Shown here: positions 26,263-34,330 of the stretch, in pieces
Layout of the letters: every line of letters begins with the position of its first letter
How positions within the stretch are numbered: the first letter of the stretch is position 1
From: Victivallis lenta
GTDB taxonomy: Bacteria; Verrucomicrobiota; Lentisphaeria; Victivallales; Victivallaceae
Assembly: GCF_009695545.1 (NCBI RefSeq)
Contig: NZ_VUNS01000002.1
Span: 186,001 to 250,000, forward strand
Reading direction: 5' to 3'
DNA: 64,000 nt
The notes under the pieces: generated by a model
Told to the model about the DNA's origin: nothing
The model's database searches: none
The model's input: only the letters and a program-made list of their open reading frames with translations
Translations under genes and position numbers: made by a program

Positions 26263-26292
26263 AGAGCTCCGGTGCGCCGGGGCTCTTTTTTT
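26263..26292 (+). terminator. Terminator of glyS
   Basis: A 10-bp stem (AGAGCTCCGG with CCGGGGCTCT, one G-U pair), tetraloop TGCG, followed by seven T including the last stem base. Confidence 0.88.
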
Positions 26293-26322
26293 CAGGGCCG
26301 CCAACGAACAGGAGATGAGATT

Positions 26323-27144
26323 ATGCTGACACGCGCCGATATCGAAAAAATGGTGAACCACCTGTACCGCCAGACCGGAGCGGACCGCTTCTTCGAAGAG
26401 CCGGACATCAGAATCGCCGCGGCGGACGATCCGTTCTTCCTCAAATTCAAAGAGATCATCGGCCCGTTCCATTGGACGCCCGATGAAGTGCTGAAACGCA
26501 AATTCCCCGATGCGCAGGCGAAATCGGTCATCGTCTGGGTGCTGCCGGTCAACCGCAAAGCGCGCGAGACCAACGCAGCCGAGAAGGTTCATCCGTCCGT
26601 CGAATGGGCCGCCGTCCGCAGCTTCGGCGAAATCCTGAATGAGGAGATGCGCGCGCAGCTCGCCGGGCTGCTGACCCGGGAGGGATTCCCCGCCGTCGCT
26701 CCGCACCTCGAACAGAAGGAGGTTTATCCGGCGCCGGGCTGGGATGTGAAGAACTTCACATCGAGCTGGTCCGAGCGGCACGTCGCCTTCGTGGCCGGGG
26801 CCGGCACCTTCGGGCTGTCGGCCAGCCTGATCACCGAACACGGCACGGCCATGCGGCTCGGTTCGGTCGTGACCGCACTCGAGCTGCCGGCGGACAAGCG
26901 TCCCTACGGCGACGACCCGTTCGCCTGGTGCACCCGCTGCGGCGCCTGCATCCGGCGCTGCCCGGCCCATGCGGTCGGCGCGAAATTCTCGGACCGCGAC
27001 AAGCCGGCCTGCGCGAAATACGCCGTCACCGAAATCTCCCGCGAACGCGAACACACCTACGGCTGGCTCGAGCGGGCGCTCGGCTGCGCCCTCTGCCAGA
27101 CCGCCGTGCCGTGTGAATTCCGCCGTCCGGGAAAAGGCGCATGA
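26323..27144 (+). CDS. Epoxyqueuosine reductase-like iron-sulfur protein
   Basis: A 273-residue protein. The C-terminal third carries a ferredoxin-like 4Fe-4S motif (WCTRCGACIRRCPAHAV, CxxCxxCxxxCP, about residues 205-220) and a later CALCQTAVPCEF, resembling the second cluster region of QueG, in which CxxC and PCE survive. The N-terminal two thirds (SVIVWVLPVN; WSERHVAFVAGAGTFG, AGLGxxG-like; SLITEHGTAMRLGSVVT) match the cobalamin/QueG-like fold. It is about 80-100 residues shorter than E. coli QueG, so it is more likely a relative than the tRNA-modifying enzyme itself. AGGAG precedes the ATG at 26323; the stop overlaps the next gene by 4 bp. Confidence 0.82.
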   Translation: MLTRADIEKMVNHLYRQTGADRFFEEPDIRIAAADDPFFLKFKEIIGPFHWTPDEVLKRKFPDAQAKSVIVWVLPVNRKARETNAAEKVHPSVEWAAVRSFGEILNEEMRAQLAGLLTREGFPAVAPHLEQKEVYPAPGWDVKNFTSSWSERHVAFVAGAGTFGLSASLITEHGTAMRLGSVVTALELPADKRPYGDDPFAWCTRCGACIRRCPAHAVGAKFSDRDKPACAKYAVTEISREREHTYGWLERALGCALCQTAVPCEFRRPGKGA

Positions 27145-27714: not shown

Positions 27715-29190
27715 GTGAACTACAATCCGATTCTACTGGGAATACTGGGAGTCTGGGCTTACTCAGGCATCTATACGCTGTTCTATGTGGACCGGCGGGA
27801 AGATGCGCCTTCCCGCGGCCGCGGCTGGCTGAATGCCGCGGCGCTGTTCGCCGGGCCGCTGGTGCTGCTGCTCTTCACCCTCTCCGACGCGCTCGGCCAG
27901 CTGCGTTCCCAGCTGGGCGGCCTTTTCTCGAAATCCGGCGGAAAGCGGCGGAAGATCGACATCGAGCTGCTCGATTCCCGCGGCCAGCCTGCGCTCGACT
28001 CGAACCACGGCGGAGAGACCGGCGAGGCGATCCACAGGACGAAGGTGCTGATCTTCGAAGCGCTCGGCAAGCGCGCAAGCGATATCTTTTTCGACCCGAA
28101 GCCGAACGGCACGGTCGTGGTGCGTTACCGCGTCGACGGCGCTCTCCGCGTCGTCGAGGAGATGAATGCGTCGCTCGGCGCGAGCACGGTCAGCGCGATC
28201 AAGGTCGCTGCCGGCATGGACATCACCGAAAAGCGGCGTCCGCAGGACGGCGCTTTCAGCTGCGTCAGTTCGCGCGGGCCGGCTTCGTTCCGCGTGGCGA
28301 GCGTCGGCGCATTCGGCGGGGAGAAGATCACGATCCGTGTGCTCTCCTCCACCGCCGGACCGATGACGCTGAAGGACGCCGGCGTCTCCGGCGAAAACCT
28401 GAAGATCATGCAGAGCGCGATCCGCATGCCGTCCGGCATGATCCTCATGTGCGGACCGACCGGCAGCGGCAAAACCTCGACGCTCTACGCGATGCTGCAG
28501 GCGATCGACTATTCGATGAAAAACGTGATCTCGATCGAAGATCCGATCGAACATGTAATGGAGAACATCAGCCAGATGGAGGTCAACACCAAGGCCGACA
28601 TCACGTTCGCAAAGCTGCTGCGCAACGCGCTGCGGCAGAATCCGGACATCATCTGCCTCGGCGAGATCCGCGACGAGGAGACCGCGCAGGTGTCGGCCCA
28701 CGCGGCGCAGACCGGCCACCTCATCATTGCGACCGTCCACAGCAACGACAACCTCGGCACGATCGACCGGCTGGTGAATCTCGGCATCCCGCTGCGCAGC
28801 GTGGCGGCCACGCTGCAGCTGATCGTCTCGCAGCGGCTGGTCCGCAAGCTTTGCCGCTGCAAGAAGCCGGTGGAACTTTCGCCGGAGCTCAAGGAATATT
28901 TCAAAAGCCAGAACCTGAGCACGAAAAACGTCTGCGGGCCGGTCGGCTGCCGCGAGTGCGACGGAACCGGTTACAGCGGCCGGACCGCCCTGTTCGACCT
29001 GATGATCATGAACAACTCGCTGCGTTCGGCGCTCGAAGCTGAAGGCGCGACCCTGTCGAGCATCAAGGAGAAAATCGAAGCGGAGCACGGCAGCACGATC
29101 CTCGCCTACGAGGGATTCAAGCTGGTGGCCGCGGGAGTCACCTCGGTCGATGAAGTCGAGCGCGTCACGCTGAATCTGGAGGCGAAATAA
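27715..29190 (+). CDS. Type II secretion/type IV pilus assembly ATPase (GspE/PilB family) with N-terminal membrane segments
   Basis: A 491-residue secretion ATPase. The N2 region starts near residue 100 (ASDIFFDPKPNGTVVVRYRV), then Walker A GPTGSGKTST (about 248), the Asp box EDPIEHVME, Walker B IICLGEIRDEETA, the His box ATVHSND and a C-terminal tetracysteine zinc site (CRCKKP, CGPVGCRECDGTGYSGR). The usual N-terminal N1E domain, which binds GspL/PilC partners, is replaced by two hydrophobic helices (NPILLGILGVWAYSGIYTLF, AAALFAGPLVLLLFTL). The ATPase may therefore be anchored directly. Start GTG 27715 is chosen from promoter position and GGGA upstream. It is followed 2 bp later by a CvpA-like gene. 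A plausible motor for the many pseudopilins. Confidence 0.9.
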   Translation: MNYNPILLGILGVWAYSGIYTLFYVDRREDAPSRGRGWLNAAALFAGPLVLLLFTLSDALGQLRSQLGGLFSKSGGKRRKIDIELLDSRGQPALDSNHGGETGEAIHRTKVLIFEALGKRASDIFFDPKPNGTVVVRYRVDGALRVVEEMNASLGASTVSAIKVAAGMDITEKRRPQDGAFSCVSSRGPASFRVASVGAFGGEKITIRVLSSTAGPMTLKDAGVSGENLKIMQSAIRMPSGMILMCGPTGSGKTSTLYAMLQAIDYSMKNVISIEDPIEHVMENISQMEVNTKADITFAKLLRNALRQNPDIICLGEIRDEETAQVSAHAAQTGHLIIATVHSNDNLGTIDRLVNLGIPLRSVAATLQLIVSQRLVRKLCRCKKPVELSPELKEYFKSQNLSTKNVCGPVGCRECDGTGYSGRTALFDLMIMNNSLRSALEAEGATLSSIKEKIEAEHGSTILAYEGFKLVAAGVTSVDEVERVTLNLEAK

Positions 29191-29191
29191 G

Positions 29192-29803
29192 ATGGAAAAC
29201 CTGATTCTCTGGGGAGTCCCCGTCATCGGCGCGCTGATCGGCCTCGGCAGCCGCCTGTTCAAAAGCTATACGTCGCTGCTGAACTTCGCCTTTGCCGTAT
29301 ATCTCTCGATCTGGACCGAAAGCATGATCTCCTCGCTGTTCCGGGTGCCCGGCAACGCCGCGCCGTACAAATCCGCCGTCACGATGCTGTTCTGTGCGAT
29401 CCTGGCCTGGGTGCTGCTGATGAAGCTGACCGACCAGCTCATGCCGGAGGAGCGGGAGTTCGTCTTCCCGCCTCTTCTAGACAAGCTCGGCGGCGGGTTC
29501 TGCGGTTTTCTCGCCGGAATGGTGCTGATCAACTTCGCCGCCTTCCTGCTCTGCGCCACGCCTCAGAAGACCATCGTCACCGGCTTCGTCTCGCTGCCGG
29601 CGCTCGAGCGGGCCAGCGCGGGGAACCTCGTCTCCTTCACGCACCTGATCGACAGCGTGACCTTTCAGAAGTACTCCCGCGGCCAGCGTGCCGAGACGCT
29701 CGAGCGGCTGATCCGCCAGGCGGACCCGCCCCCGCCGCCGGAGGAGGAGCAGCCGCCCTCCGTACCCGCCAACCTGAGAAACACAGCCAGCCCGAGGAGG
29801 TAG
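29192..29803 (+). CDS. CvpA-like membrane protein
   Basis: A 203-residue protein with four hydrophobic helices (ILWGVPVIGALIGLGSRLF, LLNFAFAVYLSIW, MLFCAILAWVLLMKLT, GFCGFLAGMVLINFAAFLL) arranged like CvpA/colicin V production family proteins, including the central DKLGGGFCGFLAGM segment. The C-terminal tail is cytoplasmic and ends in a Pro/Glu-rich stretch (DPPPPPEEEQPP). GGAGG lies about 9 nt before the ATG, inside the end of the ATPase gene, and only one base separates stop and start, so the two products are probably made together. Function unknown; pairing with a secretion ATPase is unusual. Confidence 0.75.
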   Translation: MENLILWGVPVIGALIGLGSRLFKSYTSLLNFAFAVYLSIWTESMISSLFRVPGNAAPYKSAVTMLFCAILAWVLLMKLTDQLMPEEREFVFPPLLDKLGGGFCGFLAGMVLINFAAFLLCATPQKTIVTGFVSLPALERASAGNLVSFTHLIDSVTFQKYSRGQRAETLERLIRQADPPPPPEEEQPPSVPANLRNTASPRR

Positions 29804-31157: not shown

Positions 31158-31844
31158 ATGAAACCATTGAAATTCACCCTGATCGAACTGCTCGTAGTTA
31201 TCGCGATCATCGCGATTCTCGCCTCCATGCTGCTTCCGGCGCTGAACCAGGCGCGTTCCTCGGCCAAGTCGAGCGAATGTCTGAACAACCTGAACCAGAC
31301 CATGAAAGGCGGCATTCTCTATTCACAGGACTACAACGGTTTCCTCACAGTCAAAACCCGTCGGGACGGCAATTCGCTGCTGTGGAACCAGATTTTCGTC
31401 GCGGACCGCTACGCGCCGCGCAAGACCATCAACTGCCCGGTCAACCTTGAAGATACGACCGGCAACTGGTTCCGCCGCAGTTACGGCATCTACCGCAGCG
31501 ACATCGGAACCTTCTGCAACACCTACAAAGACGAGATCGGCGACTTCTATGTACGCCCCTCCTCCGATGACTACCACTACTACGCGCTGCATCGCATCAA
31601 ACAGCCGTCGAAGCTGGCAATGTTCACCGATACGCGCACCTTCCAGGGAACCGATCTCGGGAAAGGATATGTGTTCTTCAATCCGATGCCGAACAGCGGC
31701 CTCGACGGACAGACCAGTTTGAACCACCGCGACCGCGCGAATACCGCTTTCTCCGACGGCCACTGCGCCGGCCTGAACCGGGGCCGGCTCAAAGAGCTTC
31801 ATTTCAGCAAAGTGGTCATCGGCGACGGCCAGTTTCCCCTGTAA
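31158..31844 (+). CDS. H-X9-DG pseudopilin (module A)
   Basis: A 228-residue prepilin-like protein: short basic leader MKPLK then [19 protein letters not shown] with Glu5 at the expected position, and a C-terminal H-X9-DG motif ([17 protein letters not shown]). The globular part is Cys-poor and rich in Tyr and Asn ([16 protein letters not shown]). An RBS (GAAGGCAG) precedes the ATG. It lies 104 bp after the regulator and 26 bp before the glycosidase gene, so it is probably co-transcribed with the latter. Predicted to be processed by a prepilin peptidase and inserted into the inner membrane or a pseudopilus. The role in this module is not known. Confidence 0.93.
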
Positions 31845-31870: not shown

Positions 31871-34330
31871 ATGAAATGCTCTCTTGCTTCCATACTCACC
31901 GCCGGAATATTTGCCGTAACGGGAGCTGCCGCGACCGGCGGCGACGCCGCCGGCGTCATCGTCGCCCGGGGGACGACCGGCATCTTCTTCGAAAGCGAAT
32001 CGCCGGAATTCACGCTCCGTCCCGGCTCCGAACGACCGGTTTCCTACACGGTTCGCGACCGGCATGGCCGCATCCTCGCGGAGGGCGAATGGCCCGAAAA
32101 CGGCGAAGGGACACTCACACTCCCGAAACTTGAACGCGGCATTTACACGATTACGCTGAAAAGCGGGGGAAACGCCTGCTCCGGAGCCGGAACCTTCGGT
32201 GTGGTCGCCGACGTTCCGGAACGGCCGGAAAATCCCGATATGTACTTTGCGCTGGACACCGCGCAAAGCTGGTGTGCGGTCGGTTCGAAACGCAACATCC
32301 GCTTCCCCGGCAACGGCTTCGAAACCGTAACCGAAGCCGCGCACCGTTCCGGTCTCGCATGGGTCCGGGACCGCATGAGCTGGTCGGACATCGAGAACGA
32401 ACCCGGGGCGTTCCGGCTCTGCCAGTACATTCCGAACGGCTGGCTGCTCGGCAGACGCGGCATCAGAGTGTCGAATACCTATCACGACGCTCCGAAATTC
32501 ACGAAGAAACACAGCAAAGACCTGCCAGACGACCTCTTCGCGACCTACCGTTTCGCCAGGAACGTGGCCTCGAAAGCGAAAGGCTGTACCGAAGCATGGG
32601 AGTTCTGGAACGAAGAAGACGCCGGTTTCACTGTCGAGGGCGCGTGGGATTACGCCGCGAACCTGAAGGCGGCAAGCCTCGGCTACTGGGCGGGAAATCC
32701 GAACGCCGTGATCCTGAACGGCGCGTTCTGCGTCTATCCTCTGCGCGACTACACGGATGCGGTGTTCAACAATGATGCGGCAGAGTACATCTCCGCCTTC
32801 AACTTCCACACCTATAAGCCGATCCGGGAATATCCGGAGGTCATCTCCGGACTGCGGAAATTCCTCGCCGGGCACGGGGTCCCGGAGCTGCCGATCTGGC
32901 TCACCGAACACGGCACGCAAGCCCCCGGACCGGCTTCGACGAAAAGCTATTACCCCGGACTGAAAAGTTACTCGCCGGAACAGGAGATGACCGTTGCGGA
33001 ATTCATCCCGAAAGCGCAGATCACGATGCAGAGCCTCGGCGTCGCACGCGATTTTTTCTTCATCCTCTCTCCTTATAACGAGGGCGTGAAGGATTGGGGC
33101 CTGCTGCGCAAGGATTACACCGCCCGTCCCGGCTATTTTGCGTTTGCCGCGATGGTGAAGGAGCTCGGCAATGCAAAGCTTCTCGGAAAACTCGATACGC
33201 CGAAGGGAATCCGCGCATTTCTCTACGAACAGCCGGACGGCACGCAGACCGTCGCATTCTGGAGCGAATCCGACCTCGATCTCGAAACCAATGAAAAAAT
33301 TCAGGTCGGTTCAAAGGAACTGCACAAACGCACGTTCACGATCGCGGCGAAGGAGGGCGCCTTTACAGTCCGGGATCTCTTCGGAACGCCGTCGCAAGCT
33401 GCGGCCTCCGGGGGGAGGCTGACTCTCACCTCGACCCGTTACCCGGCTTACGTCGGAGGACTCGCCGGCCTCGTTCCATCGCATCCGTCCCCGGCACCCG
33501 GAAGATACGCGATGAAGCCGACGAAAAACGACCGCACGGTCATCCTGCGCGCCGATCTTTCGGAAGATTTCATTCTCGGCAGCGGGCGCAGCAGCGTCGA
33601 CCTGCCGGGAAAGTCAGGCAGGCTCACGCTTCAGGCGTACAACTTCTCCGACACGCCGAAGAGCGGAACCATCACCGTTGCGGGAGGCCATGCCGAGGGC
33701 CTTCCGGAAAGCATCACGATTCCGGCAATGGGAAAAGTCGAGCTGCCGCTGCTCTTCACACCGCACATTCCGGAAAAGGAGTTTCACGGCAGAATGGAAT
33801 TTTCCGGAACATTCAACGGAAAGCCGGTCAGCCGCCTCCATATCCCGGTATTCCTGTTCGGGAAAAGCGTCGCATCGGGAAAAACAATGACGCTCGAAGC
33901 AATCAGCGACCCGAAACGGTGGCGGAACAACTCCTCCGGAAACATGACGGCGGCCTATGATGAAAAGGAAGGGGCAATTCGCTTCGATGTGGAATTCCCG
34001 CAGCACGGCGACCGCTGGATCTATCCGGAATTCATCCTGAAGCCGCGCGAGTCGTTCCGGCGGGCACGCGGAGTCGCGTTCGAAATCAAAACCGTGCCGT
34101 CAATGCCGAAAGAGGCGGTCTTCATGGCGGTCATGGGGCGCGAAAAAGAACACGGACGCGCCGTATTCATCCGCTTCCCGATGCCGTCGGCGGAGTGGGA
34201 GGAACGGATCATCAGCTTCGACGAATTCGTCCCGAATCCGGAGAACATCGAAATGATCCGCCTCGGAGTCAACCCGAAATCAGACCGCCAGAGCTACTGG
34301 GTCCGCAACCTGAGGGTTTTCTACAGATAG
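31871..34330 (+). CDS. Secreted clan GH-A glycoside hydrolase (GH39-like) with C-terminal beta-sandwich domains (module A)
   Basis: An 819-residue exported enzyme with signal peptide MKCSLASILTAGIFAVTGAAA. After a beta-rich N-terminal domain the TIM-barrel carries WVRDRMSWSDIENEPG, then the acid/base Glu in AWEFWNEEDAG (about residue 247) and the probable nucleophile Glu in WLTEHGTQ (about 346), typical of clan GH-A retaining enzymes such as GH39 or GH5. The C-terminal third (about 550-819) is a beta-sandwich that may bind carbohydrate (GDRWIYPEFILKPRESFRRA). It should cleave a polysaccharide or oligosaccharide outside the cytoplasm. Family and substrate need a profile search; GH39 is only my best guess. 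Confidence 0.82.
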   Translation: MKCSLASILTAGIFAVTGAAATGGDAAGVIVARGTTGIFFESESPEFTLRPGSERPVSYTVRDRHGRILAEGEWPENGEGTLTLPKLERGIYTITLKSGGNACSGAGTFGVVADVPERPENPDMYFALDTAQSWCAVGSKRNIRFPGNGFETVTEAAHRSGLAWVRDRMSWSDIENEPGAFRLCQYIPNGWLLGRRGIRVSNTYHDAPKFTKKHSKDLPDDLFATYRFARNVASKAKGCTEAWEFWNEEDAGFTVEGAWDYAANLKAASLGYWAGNPNAVILNGAFCVYPLRDYTDAVFNNDAAEYISAFNFHTYKPIREYPEVISGLRKFLAGHGVPELPIWLTEHGTQAPGPASTKSYYPGLKSYSPEQEMTVAEFIPKAQITMQSLGVARDFFFILSPYNEGVKDWGLLRKDYTARPGYFAFAAMVKELGNAKLLGKLDTPKGIRAFLYEQPDGTQTVAFWSESDLDLETNEKIQVGSKELHKRTFTIAAKEGAFTVRDLFGTPSQAAASGGRLTLTSTRYPAYVGGLAGLVPSHPSPAPGRYAMKPTKNDRTVILRADLSEDFILGSGRSSVDLPGKSGRLTLQAYNFSDTPKSGTITVAGGHAEGLPESITIPAMGKVELPLLFTPHIPEKEFHGRMEFSGTFNGKPVSRLHIPVFLFGKSVASGKTMTLEAISDPKRWRNNSSGNMTAAYDEKEGAIRFDVEFPQHGDRWIYPEFILKPRESFRRARGVAFEIKTVPSMPKEAVFMAVMGREKEHGRAVFIRFPMPSAEWEERIISFDEFVPNPENIEMIRLGVNPKSDRQSYWVRNLRVFYR

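Follow-up and report, generated by a model that had tools for sequence, protein, structure and literature searches.

Within the 64-kb stretch of DNA analysed here (the window), from the gut-type Lentisphaeria bacterium Victivallis lenta, a GTG at position 27715 opens a 491-aa frame for a PilB/GspE-type ATPase that stops at 29190, and one base past that stop an ATG at 29192 opens a 203-aa frame for a CvpA-like membrane protein (Table 1). The ATPase matches Pfam T2SSE (PF00437) over residues 110–483 at 336.7 bits, against a gathering score of 24.9, and retains Walker A (G247–T254), the Asp box, Walker B, the His box and four cysteines. A first-pass annotation of the same DNA had read the ATPase motifs and the tetracysteine site as complete, and all are indeed present, with the metal site spaced CxC...CxxC where EpsE has CxxC...CxxC. 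Its scores fall below the cut-offs of the NCBIfam equivalogs for GspE (TIGR02533, 357.7 bits against 630) and PilB (TIGR02538, 358.1 against 676), as well as of the models for ComGA (NF041000, 253.5 against 300) and TfpB (NF053534, 310.2 against 850). Among PDB sequences EpsE matches best (263 bits), and a Foldseek search with the AlphaFold2 model finds PilF, PilB and GspE as the nearest solved folds (best E 7e-38), the best matches being to the PilB/PilF structures (PDB 5oiu, 5zfr, 5tsh). The protein thus resembles GspE/EpsE (PDB 4ksr, 1p9r) in its N2/CTD fold, Walker motifs and cysteine site, but differs from it in having membrane segments instead of the GspL-binding N1 domain and CxC for CxxC.

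The partner gene is a weaker match to its family: the window protein scores 27.4 bits against Pfam PF02674 (CvpA/Colicin V production protein), where the gathering score is 29.3, and planctomycete homologues beside equivalent ATPases reach 33–37 bits, above that cut-off. Its AlphaFold2 model has four long helices, in keeping with the approximately four transmembrane helices of CvpA, and Foldseek matched this model to no solved fold. Unlike E. coli cvpA, which precedes purF (PMC6705877), the window gene adjoins an ATPase gene, and its product has a proline-rich tail. Upstream of the pair, window positions 26272–27144 encode an Fe-S protein resembling QueG (epoxyqueuosine reductase) at 41 bits, far below the cut-off of 200.

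Table 1. Features of the ATPase–CvpA locus and of related loci. Coordinates are window positions unless a locus handle (L) is given.
Feature	Coordinates	Strand	Evidence or remark
Membrane-anchored PilB/GspE-type ATPase, 491 aa, GTG start	27715..29190	+	T2SSE 336.7 bits; AF2 pLDDT 83.7; PilF/PilB/GspE best folds; conserved start and N-terminus
First transmembrane helix, residues 5–27	27727..27795	+	invariant W14; neutral-to-negative N-tail, suggesting N-out
Second hydrophobic segment, residues 38–57, proposed re-entrant hairpin	27826..27885	+	AF2 helix break at conserved G47-P48; flank charges +1.8, +3.1
N2 domain; alpha2 helix and alpha2-beta4 loop (residues 152–180) near-canonical	28015..28350	+	AF2 model; identity comparison
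Walker A GPTGSGKT, residues 247–254	28453..28476	+	
Walker B LGEIRD, residues 315–320	28657..28674	+	
Four-cysteine metal site CxC...CxxC, residues 380, 382, 412, 415	28852..28959	+	
CvpA-like four-helix membrane protein, 203 aa, proline-rich C-terminal tail	29192..29803	+	Colicin_V 27.4 bits; AF2 pLDDT 90.8
Second ATPase–CvpA pair of the same genome	L021:5081-7350 (C16:41-43 kb)		ATPase without Walker-A Lys, Walker-B Glu, His box and cysteines
Kinase-fusion loci	L066:9812-13654, L064:7257-10286, L067:409-3972, L076:806-3607		
Degenerate ATPase fused to zinc ribbon and ankyrin repeats	L144:4157-7342		between tandem PilT and CvpA genes

A membrane anchor in place of the N1 domain

The Pfam search of the window ATPase found no N1 (MshEN) domain, and residues 1–80 are occupied by membrane segments. 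With 23 relatives as input, AlphaFold2 models helices at residues 5–27, 33–45 and 47–71 followed by N2 and the CTD, with the helix break coinciding with the conserved G47-P48. A membrane anchor takes the place of the N1 docking domain, and the earlier description of a self-anchored ATPase, with hydrophobic segments where N1 should be, is upheld by the missing MshEN match and by the modelled helices at residues 5–71. That description allowed for a different true start that would remove the helices, which was not borne out: the start is safe because most orthologues share it (M-x-[YF]-N-P) and because W14 and P48 are invariant in an alignment of 24 relatives.

Averaged over 36 relatives, the N-terminal tail is neutral or negative, the loop between the two segments carries a charge of +1.8 and the stretch after the second segment +3.1. 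Together with the positive-inside rule, these flank charges suggest that the N-terminus lies outside, and that the protein makes one true crossing followed by a re-entrant GP segment. The kinase-fused relatives described below agree with this arrangement: a kinase on the inside would be followed by one crossing, by a long Ala/Pro linker on the outside and by another crossing, with the GP segment and the cytoplasmic ATPase coming last. A second ATPase type in planctomycetes has a longer hydrophobic stretch at the place of the GP segment, apparently forming a full hairpin.

In current descriptions, the ATPases of type IV filament machines are cytoplasmic engines that the platform, together with GspL or PilM, holds at the membrane. 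PilB is such a cytoplasmic ATPase, in contrast to the anchored window protein, and the competence-pilus ATPase ComGA, which like the window protein lacks N1, is not known to have a transmembrane anchor or a CvpA partner. A self-anchored clade with a fixed CvpA would be a natural system for learning how such engines push on the membrane.

A clade in Lentisphaeria and Planctomycetota

About 70 further genomes among the sampled Lentisphaeria and Planctomycetota carry a pilus/secretion-type ATPase built into the membrane in this way, nearly always adjoining CvpA. Across 198 genomes of the Lentisphaeria class, full-length members score at least 570 bits, whereas the next PilB/GspE proteins reach at most 385 and lack the N-terminus. 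The ATPase, intact or degenerate, occurs in 36 of these genomes, the matching CvpA type occurs in the identical 36 (35 from the class-wide search and one, G165, found locally), and the remaining 162 have neither. CvpA lies directly downstream of the ATPase in 36 of 37 Lentisphaeria loci, the exception (L073, in G072) being an ATPase that has lost its membrane segments and has altered catalytic boxes. This perfect co-occurrence confirms the initial suspicion that the gene one base downstream is a true partner, and chance pairing is excluded because the pair is conserved across the 37 loci. The named Lentisphaeria carriers are all Lentisphaeria/Victivallales MAGs; within the family of the source genome, 56 of 78 genomes are without the pair.

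Outside the class, a contig search with the single protein gave no relative; a search with an alignment of the N2 segment did, and the family segment retrieved contigs of Phycisphaerales, Brocadiia and Sedimentisphaerales. In a phylum-wide search of Planctomycetota, 38 of 392 genomes qualified by score (at least 542 bits, against at most 502 for ordinary enzymes). The planctomycete ATPase loci that we inspected have the membrane segments, and CvpA is the next gene in 29 of 31; of the other two, L242 has a longer related gene below the reach of the model and L251 apparently has none. The family was not found in the remaining Verrucomicrobiota sample. A GspE with N-terminal helices and a CvpA neighbour, which the first-pass annotation had suggested seeking in other PVC genomes, is thus found in both Lentisphaeria and Planctomycetota. 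In a tree of the ATPases a fully supported branch sets the Lentisphaeria members apart, and a common origin of the Lentisphaeria type and the two planctomycete types is likely.

The window ATPase belongs to a discrete PilB/GspE clade and is not a truncated gspE. The alternative of an ordinary divergent gspE with a mis-called start and a CvpA neighbour by chance is refuted, as both the N-terminus and the neighbour are conserved across two phyla, and we found no point in favour of it. The parts of this system, a PilB-type ATPase and CvpA, are known, but their combination, an anchored ATPase clade with a near-obligate CvpA in two phyla and joined to complete systems, is apparently undescribed: a search of open-access literature, which covered few subscription journals, did not find it.

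Kinase fusions and degenerate copies

Four loci encode single chains of 933–1280 aa in which a zinc ribbon, a Ser/Thr kinase and a long Ala/Pro linker precede the anchored ATPase. Elsewhere the catalytic site has decayed: in eight Lentisphaeria members the Walker-A lysine is gone, in most of them together with the Walker-B glutamate and in several with the cysteines as well. All eight retain the anchor and CvpA, so that these two features are more conserved than catalysis. The second pair of the source genome is of this kind, and purifying selection acts on its orthologues in sister species, with dN/dS between genomes G073 and G074 of 0.12 for the ATPase and 0.15 for CvpA, compared with 0.08–0.09 for active ATPases. 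Judged by these ratios, the degenerate copies are kept genes and not wreckage. Selectively kept inactive copies and kinase fusions together suggest a layer of control that is undescribed in the literature we found.

Gene neighbourhood and possible role

In three planctomycetes (G357, G461 and G409) the two genes are the last of a type II secretion system (T2SS) operon that already contains gspE and gspF. The operon runs gspE (with N1/MshEN), gspF, G, H, an I-like pseudopilin, J, K, a PilN/GspL-like gene, an M-like gene, one unassigned gene and the gspD secretin, followed by the pair, which, inside operons with a full gsp set, is an addition to a complete T2SS. As these three genomes are closely related, the linkage may represent one event. 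A PilT gene lies upstream of the pair in 11 of 31 planctomycete loci, and three Lentisphaeria loci have CpaB and FHA-CpaF (Tad) genes near the pair, with a LysM lipoprotein gene upstream. In six Lentisphaeria loci a tandem PilT, a chain of about 730 aa with two PilT-type ATPase domains (e.g. L025:6474-8684 and L066:7003-9195), follows immediately past CvpA; this adjacency is weak evidence, because 154 of the 198 genomes of the class have matches to tandem PilT, and we rejected it as a specific partner.

The first-pass annotation had proposed that this could be a self-anchored motor for a reduced or divergent system that serves scattered pseudopilins. Several observations fit this proposal: N1 is absent and the anchor present, no T2SSF gene was found within the window, and the source genome has at least 150 scattered prepilin-type N-terminal methylation genes (150 scored of 283 candidates), including one at window positions 31158–31844. 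(An 819-aa protein without a Pfam match, at 31871–34330, follows a prepilin-type gene and a regulator resembling GntR/LacI.) The anchor stood up to analysis, but the reduced system is in part contradicted: what the annotation itself had named as counter-evidence, a complete canonical gsp operon whose own gspE serves the pseudopilins, is largely borne out. Several T2SSF genes lie elsewhere in the genome, so that the reported absence of GspF holds for the surroundings of the pair but not for the genome: one gsp cluster (C4) has a secretin, gspE, gspF, pseudopilins and gspK, and a second (C10) has a C-like gene, a secretin, gspE with MshEN and gspF. A reduced system served by this motor is unlikely because of these canonical clusters, complete or nearly so and each with its own gspE, and of the two PilB and one PilC genes on C20. 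Canonical T2SSF proteins are likewise encoded in all 25 of the carrier genomes tested, and the 56 pair-less genomes of the same family may also weigh against the proposal. With canonical gsp clusters in its own genome and a place inside T2SS operons in others, the pair is additional, apparently an extra motor beside the ordinary T2SS or pilus motors and not a replacement for them.

We therefore favour, with a probability of about one half, the reading that ATPase and CvpA make up an accessory motor complex in the inner membrane, serving type IV filament machines (T2SS or pilus-like); gene neighbourhood and surface conservation argue for this reading, whose mechanism we infer. Canonical ATPases of these machines act on the GspF/PilC platform (PMC10191384); in the Pul system PulL anchors PulE via the N1 domain, and the modelled PulE–PulF contact is made by the N2 alpha2 helix and the alpha2-beta4 loop (PMC10790770). 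In active members of the anchored clade the alpha2-loop shares 46% identity with canonical enzymes, against 50% among the canonical enzymes themselves, while the rest of N2 shares 31% against 42%. This conserved surface may reflect platform docking in trans, although the loop is also near the nucleotide site, which counts against this reading. TfpB, a second extension motor of Acinetobacter (PMC8213720), offers a precedent for an extra PilB-type motor alongside the normal one.

In such an accessory motor, each subunit of the hexamer would have its N-terminus outside and enter the membrane twice, with a transmembrane helix and with a re-entrant GP segment, so that the ATPase ring would be fixed there without GspL or PilM. 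CvpA would pack against these anchors, and the N2 face would still dock on a platform of the GspF/PilC type. Beside ordinary GspE or PilB the pair might then alter filament dynamics, for instance through a second extension mode or subunit turnover, and in some lineages the fused Ser/Thr kinase might control it, or a non-hydrolysing regulatory copy might take its place. The loss of the active site in at least eight members counts against a pure motor role.

A more radical possibility, which we regard as doubtful, is that ATPase and CvpA form a new motor-platform, in which the ATPase membrane segments, ringed by CvpA, would substitute for GspF/PilC and act directly on pilin-like or other membrane substrates to move them. 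Because all 25 tested carriers encode the canonical platform, the comparison could not show CvpA replacing GspF. If true, a two-component machine, some of its forms under kinase control and others with a pseudo-ATPase, would be spread over Lentisphaeria and Planctomycetota.

The main rival to an accessory motor, less probable but to be taken seriously, is a stand-alone membrane machine or signalling device detached from pilins, in which the ATPase drives or gates CvpA as a transporter or channel, or else senses and signals, with the kinase and FHA partners and the inactive copies acting as switches. Such a role would account for the many loci where the pair is isolated: it stands alone throughout the other Lentisphaeria family, and most pairs, those of that family and of the window among them, adjoin no filament gene, which also counts against an accessory motor. 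The kinase fusions, the anchor and CvpA of the inactive copies, an FHA gene directly upstream of the pair in one planctomycete and a putative ECF sigma/anti-sigma pair (assigned by reading) upstream in two genomes of that other family point the same way, as does enteric CvpA, which has been tied to deoxycholate resistance with a proposed role in export (PMC6705877). Against it, where the neighbours are informative they are filament genes (the T2SS operon, PilT and Tad), and active members retain the platform-facing N2 surface. The pair also gives CvpA, a protein of unsettled role, its first strong functional context.

A Tad cluster about 50 kb from the window pair was considered as a partner and rejected, as only three relatives have the pair adjoining Tad genes. 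Tad-like clusters with an FHA-domain CpaF occur at two places in the source genome (L022:4723-12236, on C2 at 262–270 kb, and L023:1652-18405, on C45). One Tad-like cluster thus lies some 50 kb from the pair, and similar CpaB and FHA-CpaF genes are found directly behind the pair in relatives.
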